Below are positions 1,268 through 47,779 of a DNA stretch of 64,000 nucleotides, in pieces (the stretch's first letter is position 1; the number at the start of each line of letters is the position of its first letter). Both the position numbers and the translations under genes were made by a program. The DNA is from a virus. The notes below the pieces were generated by a model that saw only the letters and a list, made by a program, of their open reading frames with translations, ran no database searches and was not told the DNA's origin. The stretch covers positions 147,623 through 211,622 of the IMG/VR virus record IMGVR_UViG_3300044644_001125; one strand, 5' to 3'.

Positions 1268-1564
1268 TCAATTATCTTTTAGATCTCGTATGGCTCTGAC
1301 GTGGTTGACGCTGTTCTTACCGTCGATGCCCCGGCCGTAATCCTGACCCATATGACCCCAGACGTAACTGCCATCGTACTCGGTAGAGGTCCAGTACCAA
1401 CGTTTTTCAAAATCATTTTCTGAATAATATATTTCATTCAATTCTTCCTTATTAGGCAACCGCCATCCAGTCTTACCATCGATATTAAGAGAGAAGCAAT
1501 ATAATCTGGCATCATTCCAATTGAGTTTCGTTTCAGTAGATTTCGGTGCTATTTCAAAGTTCAT
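1268..1564 (-). CDS. DUF1566 (Lcl_C-like) mini-protein
   Basis: 98 residues with the family signature: an N-terminal FEIAP, then WNDARLYCFSLNIDGKTGWR followed by LPN, a Trp/Ser-rich middle (WYWTSTEYDG) and a C-terminal VRAIRDLKDN. Lcl_C/DUF1566 domains are known from surface and collagen-like proteins; their role in phages is unknown. It has no signal peptide or partner domain. Its last codons contain the 12-base word CTAAAAGATAAT. The gene ends the minus-strand small-gene block. Confidence 0.8.
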   Translation of the reverse strand: MNFEIAPKSTETKLNWNDARLYCFSLNIDGKTGWRLPNKEELNEIYYSENDFEKRWYWTSTEYDGSYVWGHMGQDYGRGIDGKNSVNHVRAIRDLKDN

Positions 1565-3557: not shown

Positions 3558-3806
3558 TCAATTATCTTTTAGATCTCGAATAGGTCTAACAAAAAGTCTG
3601 CCATAACTCGCCTCATCATCGTCTGCTGTCCAATGATACCAAGTGGTTGCATACTCATTTTCTGATTCGTAAATCTCGTTTAGTTCTTCTCCTGTAGGTA
3701 ATCTCCATCCAACTTTACCATCTATATTAAGAGAAAAGCAATACATCCTAGCTTCACCCAAAGTGGCTTCTATCTCTGTTGATTTTGGTGCTATTTCAAA
3801 GTACAT
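3558..3806 (-). CDS. DUF1566 (Lcl_C-like) mini-protein
   Basis: 82 residues from MYFEIAPKSTE, with ARMYCFSLNIDGKVGWRLPT and a C-terminal PIRDLKDN. I chose the start at 3806 because GAGGG lies just upstream and the residues match the family start; it overlaps the preceding gene by 16 bases. Last of three coupled DUF1566 genes on this strand. Confidence 0.78.
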   Translation of the reverse strand: MYFEIAPKSTEIEATLGEARMYCFSLNIDGKVGWRLPTGEELNEIYESENEYATTWYHWTADDDEASYGRLFVRPIRDLKDN

Positions 3807-4108
3807 ACATCCCTCACAGGATAAGCCCAAACCGAATCACCATCGGTTTTGTAATACGTCAACGTCTCAAAATCAGTTAAATCAACTTGAGTCGCCTGAT
3901 CATCGTCGGTACATTCAATAGTCCACACCCAAACTGATGGGTCATTAAAGTCTAAGTAAAACGTATCACGAATGCCTATCAGTTCGTCAATTGTTGGTAA
4001 TCTCCATCCAACCTTACCATCTATATTAAGACTAAAACAATACATCTTTGCTTCATCCCACGTCAACTCGTATTTTCGATATTCTTCTGGTGCTATTTCA
4101 ATACTCAT
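3791..4108 (-). CDS. DUF1566 (Lcl_C-like) mini-protein
   Basis: 105 residues, MSIEIAPEEYRK then AKMYCFSLNIDGKVGWRLPT, a divergent acidic middle and a C-terminal PVRDVCTLK. The tail departs from the usual DLKDN because the frame runs into the next gene's start region. ATGA overlap with the upstream copy. Confidence 0.78.
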   Translation of the reverse strand: MSIEIAPEEYRKYELTWDEAKMYCFSLNIDGKVGWRLPTIDELIGIRDTFYLDFNDPSVWVWTIECTDDDQATQVDLTDFETLTYYKTDGDSVWAYPVRDVCTLK

Positions 4109-4401
4109 TGTAAACCCCTCACTGCAATTACTCGACCGTATACAGATTCTTTGTTACGAATGTCGTCTCTACCGAACATCATATGTTTAATCCAAACCGC
4201 AGTAGTATTGTACTCGTATACAGCGGAAGACCAATACCAATGATCTTTATATGTATACCCACCTAAATGATATATCTCGGTTAACTCGGATAAGGTTGGT
4301 AATCTCCATCCAGTTTTACCGTTGATCTTAAGTGAAAAGCAATACAAACGAGCATCATCCCAGCTAGCTATTAGTTGCGTTGGTTCTATTTCAAATTTCA
4401 T
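4105..4401 (-). CDS. DUF1566 (Lcl_C-like) mini-protein
   Basis: 98 residues: MKFEIEPTQL, ARLYCFSLKINGKTGWRLPT, a middle containing HWYWSSAVYEY, and VIAVRGLQ at the end. First gene of a three-copy coupled unit transcribed from the promoter at 4431-4459. Confidence 0.8.
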   Translation of the reverse strand: MKFEIEPTQLIASWDDARLYCFSLKINGKTGWRLPTLSELTEIYHLGGYTYKDHWYWSSAVYEYNTTAVWIKHMMFGRDDIRNKESVYGRVIAVRGLQ

Positions 4402-6497: not shown

Positions 6498-6773
6498 ATG
6501 AACTTTGAAATAGCACCAGTTTTCATCAAAGCAACTTGGGACGAAGCCCGAATGTATTGTTTTGCTCTTAATGTCAATGGTAAGACCGGTTGGAGATTAC
6601 CTACGATAGCTGAACTACATGAGATGCTAAGTCGAGGATTAATCGAACCCGGAAATTACTGGTCGTCTGAAGTTACTACCAACAACCACATCAAGTATTT
6701 GTCACCAGTCAGTGTTAGGTTCGGCGTAAATGAATACCAATTAGGCGTTTATCCAGTTCGTGATTTAGATTAA
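6498..6773 (+). CDS. DUF1566 (Lcl_C-like) mini-protein
   Basis: 91 residues: MNFEIAPVF, ARMYCFALNVNGKTGWRLPT, a middle with GNYWSSEV, and YPVRDLD at the end. The start at 6498 is chosen for the family-typical N-terminus and the upstream AGGAAA. A lone copy behind the RlaP-like gene. Confidence 0.8.
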   Translation: MNFEIAPVFIKATWDEARMYCFALNVNGKTGWRLPTIAELHEMLSRGLIEPGNYWSSEVTTNNHIKYLSPVSVRFGVNEYQLGVYPVRDLD

Positions 6774-9269: not shown

Positions 9270-9303
9270 TCTTTTTGAATCTAAAAGATAATGAAACCCA
9301 AGG

Positions 9304-9330
9304 AACCCGACTTAGATCGGGTTTCTTTTT
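9304..9330 (+). terminator. intrinsic terminator hairpin
   Basis: The stem AACCCGA/TCGGGTT is followed by TCTTTTT. It is sandwiched between two perfect copies of the 12-base word CTAAAAGATAAT (9281-9292 and 9333-9344). Confidence 0.75.
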
Positions 9331-9351
9331 GTCTAAAAGATAATGCCTTAA

Positions 9352-9498
9352 GGCTCGCACCTAGCGGTGCTCGCACCTCACAAATCCACCCACAATAGCT
9401 CCTCACAATATCCACCGTATACTTACATTGGCTCGCACCTAGCGGTGCTCGCGACCTCACAAATCCACCCACAATAGCTCGTCGCTAACGCTCCTCGC
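9352..9498. repeat. palindrome cluster with 45-50 base direct repeats
   Basis: Palindromes lie at 9352-9374 and 9430-9452, with a diverged one at 9477-9498. The first two are each followed by ACCTCACAAATCCACCC and ACAATAGCTC, so the repeat unit extends beyond the palindrome. The 9198-9609 gap holds these repeats, the terminator above and a C-rich, T-poor stretch to 9600 in which I see no gene. Confidence 0.82.
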
Positions 9499-9609: not shown

Positions 9610-9638
9610 TTGACATTCAACAAATCTCTAAGTACAAT
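9610..9638 (+). promoter_or_regulatory. sigma-70-like promoter of the DUF1566 array
   Basis: TTGACA, 17 bases, TACAAT, 29 bases before the first array gene. I see no other promoter inside the array, so it may transcribe all 17 genes as one 4-kb message. Confidence 0.8.
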
Positions 9639-9666: not shown

Positions 9667-9939
9667 ATGGCAATTGAAATAGCACCTGAAGAATACTGGA
9701 AAAAACTCGAATTTAATGATGCTAGGTTATATTTGTTTTCGTTGGTAATAGATAATCATGCAAATTGGCGATTTCCCACACAAGATGAATGGCTTCACGA
9801 GATATACGACTTTACATCAGAATATAAGCAATTCTTTTCTGATTTTTGGCTACTAGAAGACTTGGCTTGCGTTACACCAGACAAATTAAATGAGTGGAAA
9901 GATCCGCTGTTTATAACCATACCAGTAAGAGACTTATAA
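9667..9939 (+). CDS. DUF1566 array gene 1 (long type)
   Basis: 90 residues: MAIEIAPEEYWKK, ARLYLFSLVIDNHANWRFPT and a C-terminal ITIPVRDL. Start 9667 is taken over the upstream ATG at 9610 because that one lies in the promoter and 9667 has AGGAA before it. It ends TAATG, overlapping gene 2 by one base. The middle is Phe/Trp-rich. Confidence 0.78.
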   Translation: MAIEIAPEEYWKKLEFNDARLYLFSLVIDNHANWRFPTQDEWLHEIYDFTSEYKQFFSDFWLLEDLACVTPDKLNEWKDPLFITIPVRDL

Positions 9940-10211
9940 TGGCAAGACTAGACATAAAATTTGAACTCGCACCAGAGAAATACTGGAATTGTATGACGCA
10001 TGAGGAAATCCGACTCTACTTGTTCTCATTGAATATTGATGGTACAACAGACTGGCGAGTACCCACTAACTACGAAATTCTACAATTAAAAGGCATATGT
10101 TGGCAATCCGGTGAACTTGTTTGGTATAATGAAGCTGTTCTATATTTTAACAACCATCCAAGTAACGTCAGTGCATACTACAAGTTAATTCCAGTGAGAG
10201 ATAAAAGATGA
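9939..10211 (+). CDS. DUF1566 array gene 2 (long type)
   Basis: 90 residues from MARLDIKFELAPEKYW. It has IRLYLFSLNIDGTTDWRVPT and ends LIPVRDKR. The junction with gene 3 lacks two bases (CT) of the usual GATCTAAAAG, so the stop falls four bases early, yet the ATGA coupling to gene 3 is kept. Confidence 0.78.
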   Translation: MARLDIKFELAPEKYWNCMTHEEIRLYLFSLNIDGTTDWRVPTNYEILQLKGICWQSGELVWYNEAVLYFNNHPSNVSAYYKLIPVRDKR

Positions 10212-10519
10212 TTGAAATAGCACCCAAAGAATATGAAATCCGATCAAGCTGGGACGATGCCCGTTTGTATTGTTTTGCTCTTCGCATAGATGGTAAAACT
10301 GGTTGGAGGTTGCCAACTGTTAAGGAGTTGAATAGTATCTGGGCTATGCCCGGCTGCGATTTTGCTAGATGGTATTACTGGTCATCTGAAGAAGGTGACA
10401 TTGGGTATGCTATTGATGTAGATTTTAATCGACAAGGTATAGATTATAAGTCATCGCCTGAGAATAAGGGATATGATGATAACTTAGTTAGACCAGTAAG
10501 AGATCTAAAAGATGATTGA
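10208..10519 (+). CDS. DUF1566 array gene 3 (long type)
   Basis: 103 residues, the longest copy. MIEIAPKEYEIR, ARLYCFALRIDGKTGWRLPT, a middle with ARWYYWSSEEGDIG as in full-length Lcl_C domains, and VRPVRDLKDD. Probably closest to the ancestral form. Confidence 0.82.
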   Translation: MIEIAPKEYEIRSSWDDARLYCFALRIDGKTGWRLPTVKELNSIWAMPGCDFARWYYWSSEEGDIGYAIDVDFNRQGIDYKSSPENKGYDDNLVRPVRDLKDD

Positions 10520-10718
10520 GATAGGTGAAACAACAGATGCAAGATTGACCTACGCAGAAGCAGTGATGTATTGTTTTTGTTTAGGTGATGGTTGGAGATT
10601 GCCGACACGTCACGAATATTTCAATACAGACGAGGCAATGGCGTTTTCATGGTATAACGGTAAACAAAGCACGAGTCTGCGGCCAGTTACTCCAGTACGA
10701 GATCTAAAAGATGATTGA
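10512..10718 (+). CDS. DUF1566 array gene 4 (short type)
   Basis: 68 residues. The short type begins MIEIGETT and has VMYCFCLGDGWRLPT, lacking the IDGKTG segment of long copies. The middle is DEAMAFSWYNGKQST and the end is TPVRDLKDD. Eight-base overlaps on both sides. Confidence 0.78.
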   Translation: MIEIGETTDARLTYAEAVMYCFCLGDGWRLPTRHEYFNTDEAMAFSWYNGKQSTSLRPVTPVRDLKDD

Positions 10719-10935
10719 AACAGAAATTGAAGTAGGTAAACCTGCAAAACCCATGACATATGATGAAGCGGTATTCTATTGTTTTTGTTTAGGTGATGGT
10801 TGGAGATTGCCAACTGGCGAAGAATATATGCGTTTAAATCTGCAAATGTGTTGGTGGGAAGGTCAACGTTCATTAGGTGAAAGTTCATTAGGTGAATGGT
10901 TAGTTGTTCCAGTGCGAGATCTAAAAGATGATTGA
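10711..10935 (+). CDS. DUF1566 array gene 5 (short type)
   Basis: 74 residues with VFYCFCLGDGWRLPT. The middle holds a short internal duplication (SLGE-SSLGE) from a 15-base tandem repeat at about 10869-10898, direct evidence of recent slippage in the variable part. Confidence 0.78.
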   Translation: MIETEIEVGKPAKPMTYDEAVFYCFCLGDGWRLPTGEEYMRLNLQMCWWEGQRSLGESSLGEWLVVPVRDLKDD

Positions 10936-11143
10936 AACCAAATTTGAAATAGGTGTAAGATCAACAACAAAGATGACCTATGACGACGCAGTGATGTATT
11001 GTTTCTGTTTGGGTGATGGCTGGAGATTACCTACTATTGAAGAATTCGACGGCAATGTAAACTTCGTTTGGAACTTTAATGACCAAACTAACCGTAATAA
11101 CCGTTGGCATGTAATCCCAGTACGAGACTTACAAGATGATTGA
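10928..11143 (+). CDS. DUF1566 array gene 6 (short type)
   Basis: 71 residues, MIETKFEIGVRS, VMYCFCLGDGWRLPT, an Asn/Trp-rich middle (FVWNFNDQTNRNNRW) and IPVRDLQDD. The end has Q for K in the shared tail. Confidence 0.78.
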   Translation: MIETKFEIGVRSTTKMTYDDAVMYCFCLGDGWRLPTIEEFDGNVNFVWNFNDQTNRNNRWHVIPVRDLQDD

Positions 11144-11393
11144 AATAGCACCTGAAGAATATTGGGTTGAATGTACGTGGCAAGAAATCAAACTGTACTT
11201 GTTTGTATTGACTATTGATGGTAAGCAGGATTGGAGATTACCAACCGAAGAGGAACAAGAGGATTGGTTTGTTAGCATACCGAATATCAAGGCTGAACGA
11301 TGGACAATTACGGATACTTTGGATGAAGAATGGTATTCTCGAGTTGGATCCAAGTTTTTGTTAATCCCAGTACGAGATCTAAAAGATGATTGA
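11136..11393 (+). CDS. DUF1566 array gene 7 (long type)
   Basis: 85 residues, MIEIAPEEYWVEC, IKLYLFVLTIDGKQDWRLPT, an acidic middle and LIPVRDLKDD. Overlaps both neighbours by eight bases. Confidence 0.78.
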   Translation: MIEIAPEEYWVECTWQEIKLYLFVLTIDGKQDWRLPTEEEQEDWFVSIPNIKAERWTITDTLDEEWYSRVGSKFLLIPVRDLKDD

Positions 11394-11646
11394 GATAGCA
11401 CCGGAAGAGTATTGGAAAAAATCGACCATCCACAATATCGATTTGTACTTGTTTGTTTTGACGATTGATGGTAAGATTGGCTGGAGATTGCCTACCAGCG
11501 ACGAATGGATTTATTACGTGTATGATGCAAGTGACCCAAACCATTGGATGGGTAATTATTGGTTTTCAGATGAACTTGGTTATATTGAGGATCAGGGAGA
11601 ACCTGAACTTGATATTATACCAGTAAGAGATCTAAAAGATGATTGA
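11386..11646 (+). CDS. DUF1566 array gene 8 (long type)
   Basis: 86 residues, MIEIAPEEYWKKS, IDLYLFVLTIDGKIGWRLPT, with NHWMGNYWFSDELGY in the middle, the YW.S motif typical of Lcl_C. Ends IIPVRDLKDD. Confidence 0.8.
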   Translation: MIEIAPEEYWKKSTIHNIDLYLFVLTIDGKIGWRLPTSDEWIYYVYDASDPNHWMGNYWFSDELGYIEDQGEPELDIIPVRDLKDD

Positions 11647-11851
11647 GATAGGTGAAACTACAAATTCAAGAATGACCTACGCCGATGCCGTATTTTACTG
11701 TTTTTGTCTAGGTGGCGACTGGAGATTACCAACTGAAGGGGAATCCGCGCGTTATATACCAGGTCACATTGGTTGGTTAAAAGACGACTTCCTGCGCCAT
11801 GGTGTTAGTCTTTGGCCCGTAACTCCAGTGCGAGATCTAAAAGATGATTGA
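11639..11851 (+). CDS. DUF1566 array gene 9 (short type)
   Basis: 70 residues. The N-terminus MIEIGETTNSRMTYADAV is nearly the same as gene 4, and the end WPVTPVRDLKDD also matches, but the middle differs (IPGHIGWLKDDFLRHG). Confidence 0.78.
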   Translation: MIEIGETTNSRMTYADAVFYCFCLGGDWRLPTEGESARYIPGHIGWLKDDFLRHGVSLWPVTPVRDLKDD

Positions 11852-12095
11852 ACCCAAACTCGAAGTAGCACCTGAAGAGTACTGGATAGAAACCGAGGTG
11901 ACTAATCTTATATTTTATCTTATGTTATTGGACATTGATGGTAACCGGGATTGGCGGGTCCCAACACTTGACGAAACTCGAGTTGTAAGAGTTCATGGCA
12001 TTCGTGGGATGTGGAATTCTAATGATACGGTTGATAACATTTCCCACAAAATTAAATATTGGTTAATCCCAGTACGAGATCTAAAAGATGATTGA
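11844..12095 (+). CDS. DUF1566 array gene 10 (long type, divergent core)
   Basis: 83 residues, MIEPKLEVAPEEYW, a changed core (LIFYLMLLDIDGNRDWRVPT) without the usual Cys, and LIPVRDLKDD. Confidence 0.76.
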   Translation: MIEPKLEVAPEEYWIETEVTNLIFYLMLLDIDGNRDWRVPTLDETRVVRVHGIRGMWNSNDTVDNISHKIKYWLIPVRDLKDD

Positions 12096-12327
12096 AGTAG
12101 CACAGAAAAACCAATGGCTCTCAGTTAGTCAAGCCGATGCTAAACTTCGGATGTTTGTTCTGGGTGATGGTTGGAGGTTTCCGACCTTCGTGGAAACCCA
12201 CAGTCTGCAATTTCCAATGATGGTTTCACCAGTTTGGAATACAGATACTATTAATAACCCTGAGTTAGATAAGCATCATGATGTTCGACGGGTGTTTATC
12301 CCAGTACGAGATCTAAAAGATGATTGA
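12088..12327 (+). CDS. DUF1566 array gene 11 (third type, recent duplicate)
   Basis: 79 residues, MIEVAQKNQWLSV, AKLRMFVLGDGWRFPT. It is clearly a tandem duplicate of gene 12 (shared LQFP.M, INNPELDK and IPVRDLKDD), with changes concentrated in the middle. Confidence 0.78.
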   Translation: MIEVAQKNQWLSVSQADAKLRMFVLGDGWRFPTFVETHSLQFPMMVSPVWNTDTINNPELDKHHDVRRVFIPVRDLKDD

Positions 12328-12559
12328 AGTAGCACAGAAAAAGCAATGGATTCCCCTTGTACGAGACGATGTTAAACTTCGTGTGTTTTTACTAGGTGAT
12401 GGGTGGAGATTACCAACCTTTGACGAAACTCGACTGCTGCAATTTCCAACGATGACCACACCTTACTGGTATGCGGATATCATTAATAATCCAGAGTTAG
12501 ATAAGGGTCGTAGCAATCGTCGATTACTTATCCCAGTACGAGATCTAAAAGATGATTGA
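12320..12559 (+). CDS. DUF1566 array gene 12 (third type, recent duplicate)
   Basis: 79 residues, MIEVAQKKQWIPL, VKLRVFLLGDGWRLPT. Same length as gene 11 with no indels; substitutions cluster at TMTTPYWYADI and GRSNRRLL. Confidence 0.78.
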   Translation: MIEVAQKKQWIPLVRDDVKLRVFLLGDGWRLPTFDETRLLQFPTMTTPYWYADIINNPELDKGRSNRRLLIPVRDLKDD

Positions 12560-12785
12560 AATAGCACCTGTTGAATATCACAAAAAATTAACGTATACGG
12601 ATGCCAAGTTATATTGTTTTTCTTTGAATATAGATGGTAAGGTTGGTTGGAGATTACCAACACAGAAAGAATTTTTCAATAACCGAAACATATATGGTTG
12701 GTATGCTGATGGTGTAGGTGAACGAAGTGATCGATTAACTAATCTTGGAACTATTATCCCAGTACGAGATCTAAAAGATGATTGA
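12552..12785 (+). CDS. DUF1566 array gene 13 (long type)
   Basis: 77 residues, MIEIAPVEYHKK, AKLYCFSLNIDGKVGWRLPT, a short middle (NIYGWYADGVGERSD) and IIPVRDLKDD. The core is nearly identical to the minus-strand copies at 3558 and 3791. Confidence 0.79.
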   Translation: MIEIAPVEYHKKLTYTDAKLYCFSLNIDGKVGWRLPTQKEFFNNRNIYGWYADGVGERSDRLTNLGTIIPVRDLKDD

Positions 12786-12987
12786 AATAGGTCCTAGAAC
12801 AAATACTCCATTATCCAAAGAGGATGCGGAATTTTACTGTTTTTGCCTTGGTGACGGTTGGCGATTAGCAACAGCGGATGAGTTTTACTCGATGCTTGGT
12901 AGTATTATTGGTTGTTACGATTCTTTTAGTGACCCAAATACCGTAAAATTATTCTTCACACCAGTACGAGATCTAAAAGATGATTGA
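12778..12987 (+). CDS. DUF1566 array gene 14 (short type)
   Basis: 69 residues, MIEIGPRTNTPL, AEFYCFCLGDGWRLAT (LPT changed to LAT), middle SIIGCYDSFSDPNTV, end FTPVRDLKDD. Confidence 0.77.
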   Translation: MIEIGPRTNTPLSKEDAEFYCFCLGDGWRLATADEFYSMLGSIIGCYDSFSDPNTVKLFFTPVRDLKDD

Positions 12988-13189
12988 GATAGGTGAACAA
13001 TCAGAATTTAAAATGACCTACGACGAAGCAGTTATGTATTGTTTTTGTTTAGGTGATGGTTGGCGATTACCAAGTCAAGAAGAATACCACAAATACATCC
13101 CACCCTATTTTGGTGTAACTTGGTATCAAGAACATGGTTTGTGGTTTAATTTACCAGTAATCCCAGTGCGAGATATAATCGATGATTGA
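12980..13189 (+). CDS. DUF1566 array gene 15 (short type)
   Basis: 69 residues, MIEIGEQSEFKMTYDEAV, MYCFCLGDGWRLPS, an aromatic middle (YFGVTWYQEHGLWFN) and a variant tail VRDIIDD that still preserves ATGATTGA. Confidence 0.77.
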   Translation: MIEIGEQSEFKMTYDEAVMYCFCLGDGWRLPSQEEYHKYIPPYFGVTWYQEHGLWFNLPVIPVRDIIDD

Positions 13190-13418
13190 GCAAGCACCCA
13201 AAGAATACGAAAAAGAGTTGACGTGGAATGCAGCAATCTTCTACTGTTTCTCACTTAATATTGAAGGTGATGTTGGTTGGAGATTACCGACTTATGAAGA
13301 AATACGTACTATCGTTGGTTACACGAATACGTGGAAATATTGGTACGGTGAAGTCAGAGATGACAGTGAGACTAAAAGATATCGAGTAATCCCAGTGCGA
13401 GATCTAAAAGATGATTGA
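13182..13418 (+). CDS. DUF1566 array gene 16 (long type)
   Basis: 78 residues, MIEQAPKEYEKE, AIFYCFSLNIEGDVGWRLPT, middle NTWKYWYGEVRDDSE, end VIPVRDLKDD. Confidence 0.78.
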   Translation: MIEQAPKEYEKELTWNAAIFYCFSLNIEGDVGWRLPTYEEIRTIVGYTNTWKYWYGEVRDDSETKRYRVIPVRDLKDD

Positions 13419-13626
13419 AATCGGAAAAGCATCAGAATTTGGCATAAGTTATGACGAGGCAGTTTTGTATTGTTTTTGTTTGGGTGATGGTTGGAGGTTA
13501 CCAACACAAGCGGAATACTACGCTAATCAGGAATCAGTTGGTGCATGCTGGTATCAAGGCGACCCGGCAAGCCATTTGGGTAAACTGTGGCCAGTAGTCC
13601 CAGTGCGAGATATAAAAGCGGATTGA
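13411..13626 (+). CDS. DUF1566 array gene 17 (short type, terminal copy)
   Basis: 71 residues, MIEIGKASEFGISYDEAV, LYCFCLGDGWRLPT, middle GACWYQGDPASHLG, end VPVRDIKAD. GATGAT has become GCGGAT before the stop, so there is no overlapping start and the chain ends here. Confidence 0.78.
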   Translation: MIEIGKASEFGISYDEAVLYCFCLGDGWRLPTQAEYYANQESVGACWYQGDPASHLGKLWPVVPVRDIKAD

Positions 13627-15523: not shown

Positions 15524-15844
15524 ATGATTGAATTTGCCCCAGACGAATATTGTACATACTTAAATTGGTACGATGCCAAGGTCTACTGTTTTGCTTTGAC
15601 GATTGATGGTAAGACTGGTTGGCGATTACCTACGTTTGAAGAATTTGCAGAATGGAATGCCAGTTCTGAGTATGCTGGCGTTCGTGAGTTTGATATCGCG
15701 TTACCTGTACATTTCTGTTGGACTTCAACAGAAAATGAAGATCAACAAGATACCGTGTGGGTTCACTGTGATCAAGGTATTATCTACAGCACAGAGGGCA
15801 AGGAATATCGCAGATTAACAAAACCGTGTAGAACATTCTCTTGA
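15524..15844 (+). CDS. DUF1566 (Lcl_C-like) protein, single copy
   Basis: 106 residues: MIEFAPDEYCTYL, AKVYCFALTIDGKTGWRLPT, FCWTSTENEDQQDTVWVHCD and a diverged C-terminus (LTKPCRTFS) without PVRDLKDD. The outlying end suggests it is not exchanging sequence with the array. Confidence 0.78.
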   Translation: MIEFAPDEYCTYLNWYDAKVYCFALTIDGKTGWRLPTFEEFAEWNASSEYAGVREFDIALPVHFCWTSTENEDQQDTVWVHCDQGIIYSTEGKEYRRLTKPCRTFS

Positions 15845-24859: not shown

Positions 24860-26170
24860 ATAGCAATCATCGTAAGAAGTCAACCACCCAACGATATACA
24901 TTCGTAGAGTTTGCCCACTCCAACGACTAACTGCGATATCGCCGCAGATCTCTCGATTTTAGTAGTCATTTTCTGTAAGGCCTCTGGGATTACTCCCACA
25001 TCGCCAGTTGCGTGCGATGATAACTGGACCCCATAAGTAAGGCGTTGCCCTTCATGGAGTATATTCGTGGCAGCATTTAGATCCCGGTCATGGACTTCGC
25101 CACACGAGGGGCATTCCCATTCACGTGTATTTAAATCCAAGGATTCGAGTTTATGACCGCAGCAAGAACAGGTCTTACTACTTGGATAAAAACGACCCAC
25201 TTCTTGAACTAGAACACCAGCCCATTCCGCTTTATATTTGATCATCTCTGAAAGAGTAGACCAAGCAATTTCATGGATTACTCTGCTGAGTTTCCGGTTC
25301 TTAAGTAGATTACTGACTGCCAAATCTTCTAAGTAGATCACATCATTGGTAGCCACTATGTACTTACTAAGGATGTGATAATACTCATTTCGCTGTCGCG
25401 TAATCTTGGAATGCAACCGAGCCACTTGAATACGAAGTTTCTCGTGGTTTTTGCTGCCTTTGGTAGTTCTTGCGAACTGCTTTTGTTTGCGTTTTAATAA
25501 CTGCTTGGTTTTCGCATGATACAGCAACGCATCTGGTTTAAGGAATCGAAGACCACTTGAAGTGATCATCAAATCTTTAATACCTAAATCAAAACCGACT
25601 TCTCGGTTTTTGTAATCTTGGGTTGGTACATCGGTTTCTATTAGCACAGAGGCATAATATCTGCCATCTTGGTTTTTAGAAACGGTTACCGATTTAATCT
25701 TAGCATCGGCTGGTAATGGTCTATGAATAACTGCTTTTACTTCTTTTAATTTTGGTAGCGTGATGAAGTTATCCGATACTCTAATACCTTTCCCACTGGT
25801 TCGGTATGACTGACGGCCATGCTTTGATTTGAATGAAGGTGGTTTTACTTTTGAACCTTTTCTTTTCCCCGTAATGGACTCGAAGAAATTCTTATACGCT
25901 GTCGCCAAGTCCATCGCTGCTCCCTGAAGGGCTAGGCTGTCTACTTCTTTCAAAAACTCAAATTCTTTCTTCAATGTAGGTAGAAGATTATTCATATCTA
26001 CCCAGGTAAGATGTTTCTGATTGTTCTTAAATCTATCTTGTTGATCTGCTAATAAGTAATTTGATACCCAACGTTTGCAGCCAAATATCTTCGATATCAG
26101 AACTTTTTGTTCTGCCGATGGGTATATTCGATATTTGTATGCAAGTAATTGTTTCATGTTTGTATTTATG
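24860..26170 (-). mobile_element. IS200/IS605-type element carrying tnpB only (element 1)
   Basis: The tnpB gene on the minus strand has no tnpA beside it. ATCGT/ACGAT can pair at 24869-24895, over the tnpB 3' end where the guide RNA and right end of such elements lie. Ends were not resolved; coordinates are approximate. Confidence 0.6.
24880..26157 (-). CDS. tnpB: TnpB RNA-guided endonuclease (element 1)
   Basis: 425 residues, intact. RuvC motif I is VGFDLGIKDLMITSSG, motif II is VIYLEDLAVSNL, the zinc ribbon is CSCCGHKLE...CPSCG, and motif III is HDRDLNAATNIL. TnpB cuts DNA guided by an omega RNA from its own element end and keeps the element in the population. This copy is clearly a different lineage from the one at 34901. 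It lies in the fibre cluster, on the opposite strand. Confidence 0.93.
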   Translation of the reverse strand: MKQLLAYKYRIYPSAEQKVLISKIFGCKRWVSNYLLADQQDRFKNNQKHLTWVDMNNLLPTLKKEFEFLKEVDSLALQGAAMDLATAYKNFFESITGKRKGSKVKPPSFKSKHGRQSYRTSGKGIRVSDNFITLPKLKEVKAVIHRPLPADAKIKSVTVSKNQDGRYYASVLIETDVPTQDYKNREVGFDLGIKDLMITSSGLRFLKPDALLYHAKTKQLLKRKQKQFARTTKGSKNHEKLRIQVARLHSKITRQRNEYYHILSKYIVATNDVIYLEDLAVSNLLKNRKLSRVIHEIAWSTLSEMIKYKAEWAGVLVQEVGRFYPSSKTCSCCGHKLESLDLNTREWECPSCGEVHDRDLNAATNILHEGQRLTYGVQLSSHATGDVGVIPEALQKMTTKIERSAAISQLVVGVGKLYECISLGG

Positions 26171-34819: not shown

Positions 34820-36222
34820 TTGGCATGAGCGGCTACTGTCTTACCCGTTATTATACCGACCATGTTCACCAAGTCAACTTACATTTAACTAAATAGAGAT
34901 ATGAGCACATCTACTAAAATCACTGGATATAAAACGAAATGCCTGTTAAATCAGGTACAGATCGCTTTGTTCGATAAATCAGTAGATGGTTGTGTATTCG
35001 CATATAACGAATTTCTTGCATTGGTGAATGCCGAATATGCCATAACTGGTAAGATTTCTACCAAATGCTGTAGTGTTAAAGAATTAAGAAATAACAACCC
35101 GTGGTTAAAAGAACTATCTACTAGAGTAATAGATGGAGCTCGTCTCAATCTTATCGATGCATTTAGCCGGTTCTTTACGAAGCAAAATGACTTTCCTGTT
35201 TTTAAAAACCGGTATAGCAAGAAATCACTAAGACATGCCGGTGATTGTTATCTGTACATGAAAAATGGACGTATGTATGCAGTTATTCCAAAAATTGGTC
35301 ATGTAAAGCTATTAACTGATTTTTCGGATTCGCCTAATCAATTCGATTATACAACCGTTAGCGGTGTAACCCTTTCACAAGACAGTCTTGGAAACTTTTA
35401 TGCCTCATTTCATGCGAAATCAGTAACGGCTCATTTACCGAAGACCTATAAATCAGTTGGTATTGATCCAGGTCTTACTACTTTTGCGACCTTAAGTACT
35501 GGTAAAAAGATCAAGAATCCAAGATTTCGTGAAATAACTGAAGATCGTATGAAAACGCTTCAGCGTAAACTCGCAAAATGCACCAAGAACTCAAGAAGAT
35601 ATAACAAGTATAAGAAACAAATAGCTGCATTGCACCAGAAATCAGCAAATCAATTAAATGACTTCCATAAAAAGACATCAACTAAAATAACCAAAGGCTA
35701 CGACAACATCTATATTGAGGAAACTCAGACCAAAAACATGATGTCTCGTGGTAAAAAGAAAACAAAAAGCCCTAGACGCCTAGGGAAATCATTCGCTCAA
35801 GCCGGAATCAGTGCATTCCGTGAAATCTTGATAAGAAAGGCGGAGCTTGTTGGTAAACAAGTACATCTTGTACCAGCTCGCAATACAACAAAAACTTGTA
35901 GTAGTTGTGGTCATATCCACAACGATTTAACGCTTAAAGATCGGTCATGGTCTTGCCCCGTTTGTGGTGTTGAACATGACCGAGATATAAATGCTGCCCG
36001 AAACATTTTACGAATAGGGCAGCAACGGTTTACCGGAGGTGGACTTGTTGCACAGGGCAACATTACCGGGTTACCTAATCAAAAAAGGACGCAGCAAAGC
36101 GGGTTAAGTCCCGTTAGCAAAAGTACCAGTGCAACTACTAGCAGTACCAGTAGTCTACCTGTTATTTAAACGTCTATTCACGGTTTATCTCGTGAACCGA
36201 GGACACAAAGTCCGAAGTTTAC
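34781..36222 (+). mobile_element. IS200/IS605-type element carrying tnpB only (element 2)
   Basis: Left end: adjacent palindromes ACTCGGT/ACCGAGT (34781-34800) and GACCC/GGGTC (34801-34813). Right end: TTCACG/CGTGAA (36177-36196) just after tnpB, where the guide RNA end would form. No tnpA is present, so it would need a helper transposase. Boundaries are approximate. Confidence 0.7.
34901..36169 (+). CDS. tnpB: TnpB RNA-guided endonuclease (element 2)
   Basis: 422 residues, intact. RuvC I is VGIDPGLTTFATLS, RuvC II is IYIEETQTKNM, the zinc ribbon is CSSCGHIHN...CPVCG, and RuvC III is HDRDINAARNIL. It differs strongly from the copy at 24880. CTAAATA at 34889-34895 lies close to its start. The tail after the zinc region is Ser/Thr-rich. 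Confidence 0.93.
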   Translation: MSTSTKITGYKTKCLLNQVQIALFDKSVDGCVFAYNEFLALVNAEYAITGKISTKCCSVKELRNNNPWLKELSTRVIDGARLNLIDAFSRFFTKQNDFPVFKNRYSKKSLRHAGDCYLYMKNGRMYAVIPKIGHVKLLTDFSDSPNQFDYTTVSGVTLSQDSLGNFYASFHAKSVTAHLPKTYKSVGIDPGLTTFATLSTGKKIKNPRFREITEDRMKTLQRKLAKCTKNSRRYNKYKKQIAALHQKSANQLNDFHKKTSTKITKGYDNIYIEETQTKNMMSRGKKKTKSPRRLGKSFAQAGISAFREILIRKAELVGKQVHLVPARNTTKTCSSCGHIHNDLTLKDRSWSCPVCGVEHDRDINAARNILRIGQQRFTGGGLVAQGNITGLPNQKRTQQSGLSPVSKSTSATTSSTSSLPVI

Positions 36223-44216: not shown

Positions 44217-45209
44217 ATGGCAATCAGAATATTAACTGAAAAATCGACATACACTGTCGATTATCCTACTGCAATTGAGTTTGCAGAACAACAAGCCGAA
44301 GTCTTTTGGCTACCAGGTGAAATCGAGGTCGAAAAAGACCTGCATGATATGAAAACAACCTTCACCGAATCAGAATATCATGGAGTTATCTCAACTCTAA
44401 AATTGTTTACAATATATGAGCTATCAGTTGGTAATGATTACTGGCAGAACTATGTTTCTAAAGTATTCCCGAGACCAGACATCCAAAGAATGGCTGCTAC
44501 CTTTTCATTTATGGAATTAGGGGTTCATGCACCATTCTACAACAAAATTAACGAAGTACTTGGTTTAGATACCGATGAGTTTTACAGTGATTATATGAAC
44601 GACGAAGTTCTTAAAAATCGCATGGCTTGGATTGGTAAACGTACCGAAAAACGTGATACAGTTTATGATATCTTAAAGTCAGTTGGTATCTTCTCTATGA
44701 TTGAAGGTGCTATTCTATACAGTTCATTTGCTTTCTTAAAGCATTTCAATAGTGTAGGTAAAAATAAGCTCAGTGCCATAAACTCCGGAATCAACTTCTC
44801 GGCTATCGATGAAACTTTGCACAGTCAAGCAGGTGCTTGGTTATTCAGAACATTGTTATCAGAGGCTATCGCTGACAATGCGTTAACTGAAGAAGAATTA
44901 AAAAGTCTAAAAGATGATTTAGTCGAAACAGCCAACTTGATTCTTGAGCATGAAACTGTTATTATTAATAAGATATTCGAAAAAGGTCCAATCCGTGGTA
45001 TTACGGATAAGCAGTTGATTCATTTTGTTGAATCAAGATTGGATACTTGTTTGAAAAACTTGGGTTACAAAGCTATCTTTAAACCCACGTACAACCCTAT
45101 CGAAGAATGGTTCATGAAAGATTTGAATTCGAGTGTTCTACACGATTTCTTTTCAAGTACTGGATCGGATTATACACGCGCTTGGATTGAAGGACGTTTC
45201 ACATGGTAA
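44217..45209 (+). CDS. nrdB: ribonucleotide reductase class I, small subunit
   Basis: 330 residues. Metal ligands and radical site are E68 (TIYELS), E100 and H104 with Tyr108 (MELGVHAPFY), then Glu in SMIEGAIL and Glu/His in AIDETLHSQ. It generates the radical used by NrdA. AGAGG precedes ATG. The last seven bases overlap nrdA. Confidence 0.94.
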   Translation: MAIRILTEKSTYTVDYPTAIEFAEQQAEVFWLPGEIEVEKDLHDMKTTFTESEYHGVISTLKLFTIYELSVGNDYWQNYVSKVFPRPDIQRMAATFSFMELGVHAPFYNKINEVLGLDTDEFYSDYMNDEVLKNRMAWIGKRTEKRDTVYDILKSVGIFSMIEGAILYSSFAFLKHFNSVGKNKLSAINSGINFSAIDETLHSQAGAWLFRTLLSEAIADNALTEEELKSLKDDLVETANLILEHETVIINKIFEKGPIRGITDKQLIHFVESRLDTCLKNLGYKAIFKPTYNPIEEWFMKDLNSSVLHDFFSSTGSDYTRAWIEGRFTW

Positions 45210-47779
45210 AAAAAGAACAATCAATTTATGCTGAATTAGGCGAGGAACGTAAACGCCTACAAGAAGAAGGTAAACTGCCTGAATGGGTAACCACACCAGC
45301 ATGGCAAATGCTAAAAGAAAATTACCTATCTGAGAAGTACCCTGATTTATACTCGGTTTATCATCGAGTAGCCGATCATGCTGCAAAGTATACAAATAAT
45401 CAAGAAGAATGGAGTGCCAAGTTCTTTGAATTGCTTTGGAATGGTTGGTTAGCTGCTTCAACTCCAGTTCTATCTAATATGGGTACTGGTATTGGTTGTG
45501 CAGTGTCTTGTTCTGGTGGTTATATCAATGATAGCGTATATGACTTTTATGATGCACAAAAAGAAGCCGCAGTTCTGTCTAAAAATGGATTTGGTACTTC
45601 TGGTTACTTAGGTGCTATCAGACCACGCGGTTCTAAAATTGCAGGTATGAAAGGTGCTGCATCTGGTGTATTGCCAGTATTCAAAGACTTTGTACAGCTA
45701 TCACGTGATATCAGCCAAGGTAGCCAACGAAGAGGTGCTTGGGCTGGTTATATCGAAATCGATCATGGTGATTTCCATGAATTAGTTAATTACATTGGTA
45801 AAAACCCAGACGATGCTAATATTGGTTGGAATGTAACTGATGCGTTTATTGCTAGATTAGATGCTGGTGATCCTGATGCAATTGAACGCTATCAAAAAGC
45901 ACTTAAATTGAAAATGATTACAGGTAAAGGTTACTTTTTCTTTGTTGATAAAGTAAACCGCCAAGCACCTCAGATGTTTAAAGACAAAGGATTGGAGATT
46001 AAAGCATCTAATCTCTGCTTAACTGGTGATACATTAATCAAAATCAAGATTGCTGATGCTATTAACAGTATTAAGTTAGAAGACTTTGTTCAATACTACA
46101 CCGCCGATTCTACAGTGCAAGTACAAACTTACTTAGATGGTAATGTCCATTGGTCATCAGTTAGTGCTGCTGCTCAAACTGCGATTGTTACTGAGTTGTA
46201 TGAAATTTCAACAAAAGATAGTATGATTAAATGTACTAGTAATCACAAAATCTTTACGGTTAACCGTGGTTATGTAGAAGCTAAGGACTTAACGGAAACC
46301 GATTATCTTTTAGCGAGTAACGGTGAAGTTGCTAGTATTACAGTTAATATTATTGAAGTTGAAGAAACTCCAGTATATGACATCACGGTACCAGAAACAG
46401 AATGCTTCTTTGCCAATGATCTTTTAGTACACAACTGCTCAGAAATTGCATTATTTTCAGACGAAGACCATACATTCTCATGTGTATTATCTTCAATGAA
46501 TGCGTCACTTTACGATGAGTGGAAAGATACTGACGCAGTGTTTAATGCAACTGTTTTCTTAGACTGTGTTAACCAAGATTTAATTGAAATTGGTAAAACA
46601 AAACGTGGTATGGAAAAAGTTGTTCGATTTGCTGAGAAAAGCCGTGCATTAGGTTTAGGTATGCTTGGTTTCCATACTTATCTACAAGATAACATGATCG
46701 CATTTGATTCAATGGAAGCCTATTACAAGAATACTGAAATCTTTAAGCATTTACATGATGAATCTAAAAGAGCATCTGAGTGGATGGCTTCAGCATTTGG
46801 AGAACCTGAATGGTGTGAAGGTTACGGTGTTAGAAACGTAACGAGAATCGCGATTGCGCCGAATATGTGTGTAACAGCGGATACTAAGATTGTTCTAGGT
46901 GACCAATCAGTTGTTGATTATGCTACCTTGATTGGTAAAATGGGTCTTGATTATGATGCTATACGAGCAACAAATGATAAACAATGGCATTCTGCCGTTA
47001 CTCCAGTAGTAGTTGCAACTCCTGAAGGTACTAAAACTGTTGATAAAATCTGGTATAACGGTATTGAAACTGTTTATATGGTAACTTTCACGAAAGGCGA
47101 TGAATACTATTCAATTACCTGTACGGAAAAACATAAGTTTAGACGTATCGATGGTGAATGGATTGAAGCACATGATTTAGTTAAAGGTGAGCAGTTTGAC
47201 AATGGTTGGACTTTTGAAGTTATTGAAGAAATGCCGCTACAAGAAGCGACTTTTGACATCGAAGTTCCAGACGAGCACTGTTATCTTTTAGAATCAGGTA
47301 TTGTTAGTCATAACTCGTCTTCATTAATTTGTGGTTCTGTATCACAAGGTATTGAGCCAATCTACAAAAACGCATACGTGCAAAACACGGCTGCTGGTAA
47401 GATTGATCGAGTTAACCCAACTTTATTACGATTAATGAAAGAAAAAGGTGTTTATTCTGATAAGATCGTTAAAGATATTATTGATAATCACGGTTCAGTA
47501 CAACACGTTGACTGGCTAACAGATGATGAAAAAGCTGTATTTAAAACAGCATTTGAAATTCCACAAACCCAGATCATTCGATTGGCTTCTGCTAGACAAC
47601 GGTTTATTGACCAAGCACAAAGTATTAACTTATTCTTTAGTGCTGAAGAAGATGAAGAATACATTAGTGAAGTTCATAAAATGGCATTCAAAGATCCGTA
47701 TGTTAAATCACTGTATTACATTAGATCTGAGAATGGTGTTGATGTAAACAAATCAGCATGCGTTGCATGTGAAGGCTAA
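45203..47779 (+). CDS. nrdA: ribonucleotide reductase class I, large subunit, with two inteins
   Basis: 858 residues before splicing, 569 after. Extein motifs are ATPVL-like (AASTPVLSNMGTG), CAVSCSGG, NLC (split by intein 1) and SEIALFSDE, FSCVLSSMN, IAPNM/SSSLICGSVSQGIEP (split by intein 2), and a C-terminal SACVACEG with the reducing cysteines. There is no ATP-cone at the N-terminus. The enzyme makes deoxynucleotides for phage DNA synthesis. Confidence 0.94.
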   Translation: MVKKEQSIYAELGEERKRLQEEGKLPEWVTTPAWQMLKENYLSEKYPDLYSVYHRVADHAAKYTNNQEEWSAKFFELLWNGWLAASTPVLSNMGTGIGCAVSCSGGYINDSVYDFYDAQKEAAVLSKNGFGTSGYLGAIRPRGSKIAGMKGAASGVLPVFKDFVQLSRDISQGSQRRGAWAGYIEIDHGDFHELVNYIGKNPDDANIGWNVTDAFIARLDAGDPDAIERYQKALKLKMITGKGYFFFVDKVNRQAPQMFKDKGLEIKASNLCLTGDTLIKIKIADAINSIKLEDFVQYYTADSTVQVQTYLDGNVHWSSVSAAAQTAIVTELYEISTKDSMIKCTSNHKIFTVNRGYVEAKDLTETDYLLASNGEVASITVNIIEVEETPVYDITVPETECFFANDLLVHNCSEIALFSDEDHTFSCVLSSMNASLYDEWKDTDAVFNATVFLDCVNQDLIEIGKTKRGMEKVVRFAEKSRALGLGMLGFHTYLQDNMIAFDSMEAYYKNTEIFKHLHDESKRASEWMASAFGEPEWCEGYGVRNVTRIAIAPNMCVTADTKIVLGDQSVVDYATLIGKMGLDYDAIRATNDKQWHSAVTPVVVATPEGTKTVDKIWYNGIETVYMVTFTKGDEYYSITCTEKHKFRRIDGEWIEAHDLVKGEQFDNGWTFEVIEEMPLQEATFDIEVPDEHCYLLESGIVSHNSSSLICGSVSQGIEPIYKNAYVQNTAAGKIDRVNPTLLRLMKEKGVYSDKIVKDIIDNHGSVQHVDWLTDDEKAVFKTAFEIPQTQIIRLASARQRFIDQAQSINLFFSAEEDEEYISEVHKMAFKDPYVKSLYYIRSENGVDVNKSACVACEG
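46016..46435 (+). other. mini-intein 1 in NrdA
   Basis: 140 residues (272-411). It starts Cys (CLTGDTLIKI), has a TSNHKIF block B and ends YDITVPETECFFAND...LVHN before Cys+1. It sits between Leu and the catalytic Cys equivalent to E. coli C439 (NLC). No homing endonuclease domain is present. Confidence 0.9.
46868..47314 (+). other. mini-intein 2 in NrdA
   Basis: 149 residues (556-704). It starts Cys (CVTADTKIVL), has TCTEKHKF as block B and ends FDIEVPDEHCYLLE...VSHN before Ser+1. It interrupts the substrate loop APNM/SSSLICG. Sequence differs from intein 1, so they are separate acquisitions. No endonuclease domain. Confidence 0.9.

Follow-up and report, generated by a model that had tools for sequence, protein, structure and literature searches.

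DUF1566 (Lcl_C, PF07603) is established as a target domain of diversity-generating retroelements (DGRs), reported as the most common Pfam domain among their target proteins, and multi-target elements are known, such as the one with six variable regions (VRs) in Stenotrophomonas sp. SKA14 (PMC6642488). Large paralog families are equally established in jumbo phages: the approximately 35 zinc-ribbon copies of Bacillus phage G represent a lineage-specific expansion, and the same survey reports no C-type-lectin FGS domains in its jumbo phages (PMC7824862). Here we describe an array of 17 small DUF1566-like genes at positions 9667-13626 of a 64,000-nucleotide (nt) window, which spans bases 147623-211622 of a virus record 327,256 bases long (IMGVR_UViG_3300044644_001125, hereafter G000). 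The record is that of a jumbo phage, as its tail-fibre, ribonucleotide reductase and other phage genes show. With moderate confidence, we read the array as an operon-like cluster of a DGR-derived family of minimal C-type-lectin-like proteins in this jumbo phage clade, now diversified by duplication and divergence.

All 17 open reading frames (ORFs; g1 to g17) run in the same direction, on the (+) strand, with zero internal stops. The original prediction had described them as overlapping mini-genes from the sequence, and each proved to be intact, with no frameshift and no sign of pseudogenes. The array opens with the Lcl_C-like mini-gene g1 (9667-9939, 90 amino acids (aa)), g2 (9939-10211, 90 aa) and the full-length Lcl_C gene g3 (10208-10519, 103 aa), and continues with g4 (10512-10718, 68 aa), g5 (10711-10935, 74 aa), g6 (10928-11143, 71 aa), g7 (11136-11393, 85 aa), g8 (11386-11646, 86 aa), g9 (11639-11851, 70 aa), g10 (11844-12095, 83 aa), g11 (12088-12327, 79 aa), g12 (12320-12559, 79 aa), g13 (12552-12785, 77 aa), g14 (12778-12987, 69 aa), g15 (12980-13189, 69 aa), g16 (13182-13418, 78 aa) and the last copy, g17 (13411-13626, 71 aa). 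A sigma-70-like promoter sequence (TTGACA-17-TACAAT, 9610-9638 (+), 11 of 12 matches) lies 28 nt 5' of g1, with an intrinsic-terminator-like hairpin further upstream (9300-9327 (+), 11 pairs and a T-rich tail); both are consensus matches only. Construction of the array through neighbour-to-neighbour duplication was considered and rejected, since copies lying side by side are not clearly more similar than expected for a random order (p 0.09); the exception is g11, which is closest to the adjoining g12 (66% identity).

Successive genes are joined by short overlaps. The g1/g2 junction is TAATG (1-nt overlap) and the g2/g3 junction ATGA (4-nt overlap), while from g3 to g17 all 14 junctions share the same 8-nt overlap, ATGATTGA. 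An exact 18-mer, GATCTAAAAGATGATTGA (type copy at 10502-10519 (+)), is found at 12 of these 14, bearing out the near-invariant stop/start junction that had been proposed from the third gene on; the two variants are GACTTACAAGATGATTGA (g6/g7) and GATATAATCGATGATTGA (g15/g16). Conservation extends to silent sites, where the synonymous mismatch (pS) pooled over the array genes is 0.28 in the tail versus 0.66-0.72 elsewhere in the genes. The 8-nt overlap recurs in other clusters of G000 and in both related records of 372 kb. Every overlapping cassette has an ATG, and cluster-final copies have mostly lost it (GATAATTGA, GCGGATTGA, GACGATTAA); g17, which has no follower gene, ends in GATATAAAAGCGGATTGA, with a tail cassette lacking the ATG (AAAAGCGGATTGA). 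The A-to-G change that creates the junction ATG is maintained where a gene follows, and the stop/start overlap is kept only there, as expected of a translationally coupled operon.

The invariant junction also contains CTAAAAGATGAT, one base off CTAAAAGATAAT, a 12-mer with 139 copies in the 327-kb record and none in a reversed control. The window holds 16 copies (9281, 9333, 17366, 18200 and 12 more) versus 0.03 expected, and copies are often paired at distances of 21-54 bases, in direct or inverted orientation. Cluster-end copies of the gene family mostly carry the 12-mer or another ATG-less form. As the junction motif lies a single base from this genome-wide repeat, the 'LKDD' protein tail is in part a DNA motif translated in frame. 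Three roles for the 12-mer were tried and set aside: a gene-end element (17 ORFs of at least 60 aa end in it versus 31 at random places), a three-frame stop element (a third-frame stop follows in 28 of 93 only) and a promoter mark, for which the signal is weak (7 cases with TTGACA in the 45 nt that follow, 2 expected). Another dispersed intergenic element, GCTCGCACCTAGCGGTGCTCGC-like, was noted at 9350-9470 of the window and just 3' of family genes in two other contigs (L013:4673 and L017:6822).

The curated cut-off of the PF07603 profile is passed by 27 family members, including g3 and a copy outside the array at 1268-1564 (-). Among ten array genes scanned, g3 alone exceeds it (3.5e-10, 40.6 bits, cut-off 34.9); the others are weak or unmatched, with g16 just below (1.2e-07, 32.5 bits) and g7 and g13 at 0.0024 and 0.0018. 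A model of a full-length member (pLDDT 97.2) finds the Legionella Lcl C-terminal domain as its best match in the PDB (E 9e-7, TM 0.80), followed by C-type-lectin-like proteins. The 77-aa g13, modelled as a minimal C-type-lectin-like domain (pLDDT 89.8, pTM 0.77), best matches the same Lcl domain and poxvirus A33, in its small C-type-lectin-like domain; ranks 1-4, 6 and 7 of its PDB matches are C-type-lectin-like (TMq 0.51-0.59) but with E-values of 0.6 or above. We take the array members to be minimal C-type-lectin-like domains, a model-based assignment for which the mini fold match alone is not significant. The Lcl_C/DUF1566 identity and C-type-lectin nature suggested by the original prediction are supported for the family, with the qualification that most array genes fall under the Pfam cut-off.

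The array is one part of a much larger family. A nucleotide search with a 721-base piece of the array hit 70 places in G000, a profile built for the family gave 83 matches, and at least 82 family genes were read in the stretches fetched, with a coding total of 23.2 kb or 7.1% of the record. Of the 82 genes, 37 encode up to 92 aa and 40 encode 93-125 aa. They form clusters, on either strand, near 36, 97, 108-131, 144-154, 157-163, 224-232, 236-240, 261, 308 and 324-326 kb. In addition to 1268-1564 (-), members outside the array in the window are found at 3558-3806 (-), 3791-4108 (-), 4105-4401 (-), which is above the Pfam cut-off, 6498-6773 (+) and 15524-15844 (+). The profile matched 45 and 41 times in the two 372-kb relatives and 40 times in a related 88-kb record, and homologous clusters are present in short contigs of close relatives. 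In one of these, L024, the sequence beyond the homologous end cluster maps to the start of G000 (L024:14000-16500 equals G000:1892-4352), which indicates that the G000 record is nearly complete. A scan of genome contigs with a single family protein matched only a Bacteroidetes metagenome-assembled genome fragment, and no family gene was found in it at E 1e-4. No orthologous array was found among viral contigs in a synteny search with either the flanking phosphoesterase gene or g8. Also seen were one member extended at its N-terminus by about 125 aa and another with two domains (L014:6735-7412 and L009:6535-7137).

The link to DGRs comes from full-length paralogs. About 14 of these, outside the array, share a stretch YWSST...AW.Q.F..G.Q....K......VRAVR in which each variable column holds 3-12 different amino acids and the third codon base is mostly near-fixed as C or T (NNC/NNT). 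Free codons end in a pyrimidine in 127 of 139 cases in the variable region versus 169 of 346 upstream (Fisher p 2e-20), and pairwise mismatch at first and second positions is 0.61 versus 0.15. Variation at first and second positions of NNC/NNT codons is the trace expected of mutagenic retrohoming from AAC/AAT template codons. In a scan of viral contigs, the template deduced from this footprint matched 107 viral stretches exactly; of the 80 loci examined, 78 had a reverse transcriptase (RT) within 2 kb of the match (median distance 103 bp). The nearest isolate-phage homologs are themselves DGR targets, beside RT genes and template repeats: that of Burkholderia phage Magia adjoins an RT, an Avd-like gene and repeats, and that of Pseudomonas phage Cruim01 an RT and repeats. 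A clean footprint is seen in a minority of copies and is partly eroded in others, with graded strength; the window copy at 1268-1564 (-) bears it (third-position pyrimidine fraction 0.92, C/(C+T) 0.67).

No such footprint is present in the 17 array genes. Their C/(C+T) ratio at third positions is 0.28 both in the middle and upstream, and pyrimidine-ending free codons amount to 0.55 versus 0.46; DGR rewriting of the array genes was rejected on these values. The original suspicion of a DGR connection thus stands for full-length paralogs elsewhere and for 1268-1564 (-), and fails for the array itself. Its remark that no RT was seen holds well beyond the window: RVT_1 had no match in G000 or in ten related records, where controls were detected, and these 11 records include three of 327-372 kb. 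A search of G000 with the deduced template found VR copies only (best 81%) and no template repeat. In another virus, an 88-kb contig (L033:8427-10246) carries five tandem DUF1566 genes that differ in the C-terminal stretch chiefly at codons with C as their last base, an arrangement that, judged from the codons, would be as in a multi-target DGR array; no RT was found in that contig.

Selection on the family was followed through orthologs. In 38 ortholog pairs between two related records (G002 and G003, the latter of 88 kb), dN/dS rises from approximately 0.11 in the core through 0.24 in the N-terminus and 0.33 in the tail to 0.40 in the middle, and the pattern recurs in other well-sampled pairs. 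Among the 17 array genes, pooled pN/pS is 0.53 for N-terminus and core and 0.74 for the middle, and in the closest pairs (e.g. g11/g12 and g15/g17) core pN is well below pS. Between relatives the family is under purifying selection, with a middle that is relaxed and not positively selected. The conserved core and the variable middle are as originally described, and divergence along the genes is not uniform, so that this check and the one for frameshifts both came out in favour of the original prediction; an excess of nonsynonymous change in the middle, for which it had suggested a test, was not seen, and positive selection there was rejected at a dN/dS near 0.4.

Copy number is fluid by comparison. 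The 324-326 kb locus has seven copies in G000 and six and five in two relatives; at 224-226 kb, four copies are missing in one relative and two others hold copies not found in G000. Of 44 family genes in G003, 37 match fetched G002 genes at more than 75% identity and seven do not, and gene order differs in part between the two, even though shared copies are little diverged (median dS ~0.1). Family copies are quickly gained and lost, with arrays in relatives gaining, losing and partly reordering their members.

Four other explanations deserve weighing alongside our own. A multi-target DGR might still be working, with the VR-bearing paralogs rewritten in trans by an RT from the host, from a co-infecting prophage or too divergent to be detected, and with the array genes as retired targets. 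At the 324.5-kb locus, 13, 11 and 4 of 40 VR codons differ at positions 1, 2 and 3 between G000 and L024, compared with 6, 5 and 17 of 55 codons upstream, which is the pattern that mutagenic retrohoming would leave if it acted after the split; at the 325.5-kb locus, 10 bases differ in the VR and one upstream between G000 and L022, another relative. The faster VR change at these two loci reflects rewriting, or replacement by another copy, after some relatives had split, and the graded footprint, from clean to eroded, would also suit ongoing activity. However, replacement by a paralog could produce the same differences, the VRs at 230 kb and 226 kb show no less conservation between relatives than their flanks do, and RVT_1 is absent from all 11 records as is a template from G000. 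We judge a still-active system unlikely. Selfish or neutral amplification, in which the short junction repeats drive duplication and the products have little function, would account for the near-identical cassette with its kinship to the 139-copy 12-mer and for the fast copy turnover. It is at odds with pooled dN/dS, which in well-sampled comparisons stays well below 1 and reaches its minimum in the fold core, and with the lack of any frameshift in the 17 genes; the purifying selection already disfavours it, and we regard it as very improbable.

The remaining two explanations concern where the proteins act. As virion receptor-binding or decoration proteins, one per type of host receptor, they would make use of the C-type-lectin fold that is the usual receptor-binding scaffold of DGRs (PMC5006420, PMC6328139), and the Lcl C-terminal domain is a carbohydrate-binding trimer (PMC11162425). 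The family proteins are, however, mostly stand-alone single domains that start right at the domain and have no added attachment domain, and the tail-fibre genes lie at approximately 22-33 kb of the window, some 9-20 kb from the array; the DGR target of phage Magia is likewise situated in a non-structural region. A virion role is therefore rather doubtful in our estimate. The mini-genes may instead encode intracellular adaptors for host takeover or counter-defence, each binding a different host protein. Many small clustered paralogs, their fast turnover among close relatives and purifying selection on the individual genes fit such a function, although no known counter-defence protein of C-type-lectin-like fold was identified. 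Because the proteins stand alone, without an attachment domain and apart from the tail genes, we rate the intracellular role slightly above the virion role, while holding it as a tentative possibility.

Our preferred reading, an operon-like array of DGR-derived mini-lectins, joins these observations as follows. The adenine-templated codon pattern retained in the VRs of full-length copies marks the family as related to DGR target proteins. Its diversity now lies in more than 80 individual genes, which multiply and diverge and may become shorter or be lost, and in the array the copies are reduced to 68-103 aa and joined by the 8-nt stop/start overlap. Judging from this anatomy, one transcript with coupled translation could yield all array proteins together. 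They would most likely constitute a fixed repertoire of small binding domains with loop regions of differing specificity, either produced within the host cell or borne on the virion. The notion of interchangeable binding modules, put forward in the original prediction, would fit this picture; that known relatives bind glycans or act as DGR-diversified scaffolds supports binding, and does not single out a particular ligand or place. Several points weigh against the reading as a whole. The array genes carry no DGR footprint, so that their link to DGR targets runs through homology to the full-length copies; selection on the 17 is judged from paralog comparison and from the family, no orthologous array having been found; Foldseek E-values for the mini-gene model are weak (0.6 and above); an RT may be too divergent for RVT_1 or supplied by the host; and the order of events, DGR target first and expansion later, is one we infer.

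A stronger version can be put forward, though more as a speculative possibility than as an expectation: a DGR target domain that became frozen, gave rise to more than 80 copies and was pared down into coupled mini-lectin arrays, each member binding a different partner, such that a genome-encoded repertoire replaces hypermutation. If so, recognition diversity would be carried in parallel by many genes and not generated in one. The family itself offers a natural series in which to ask how a binding scaffold passes from hypermutation to a fixed set of many genes, and its stand-alone domains are compact enough a set for ligands to be sought for each in turn.

Two observations elsewhere in the window stand apart from the array. 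The ribonucleotide reductase large subunit (45203-47779) aligns to phage homologs in three pieces with approximately 71% covered, and an intein or inserts are possible on that basis. An IS605-type TnpB-like gene and transposase are present within this jumbo phage genome at 24880-26157 (-) and 34901-36169 (+).

No report of a phage DUF1566 family of such size, or of one outliving its retroelement, was found in the open-access papers searched. DUF1566 proteins usually number one to few per element as DGR targets; this jumbo phage clade keeps 40 to more than 80 such genes with no retroelement found, some scarred by a variable-region footprint and others shortened to some 70 residues. The family resembles PF07603 and the Legionella Lcl C-terminal domain (PDB 8q4e) in the profile scores of 27 paralogs and in the fold of a full-length member, but its proteins are mostly stand-alone domains of ~70-125 aa without the collagen stalk of Lcl, and array members are shortened and mostly score under the Pfam cut-off. 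With the DGR target of phage Magia they share the domain, the C-terminal variable stretch (AWYQNF.NG.Q...RAVR) and the NNC/NNT signature; unlike such targets, they occur as more than 80 paralogs and not a few, most without the signature, and with neither RT nor template repeat found. As in SKA14, several DUF1566 targets share one genome; here the copies are about ten times as many, and they belong to a phage and lack the retroelement. The zinc ribbons of Bacillus phage G, too, are a single domain multiplied into many paralogs within a jumbo phage, of a different fold. Finally, the array resembles ATGA-type coupled genes in that each upstream stop overlaps the downstream start, and departs from ordinary coupling of this type in using the same 8-nt overlap 14 times consecutively and reusing it in other clusters and in relatives.

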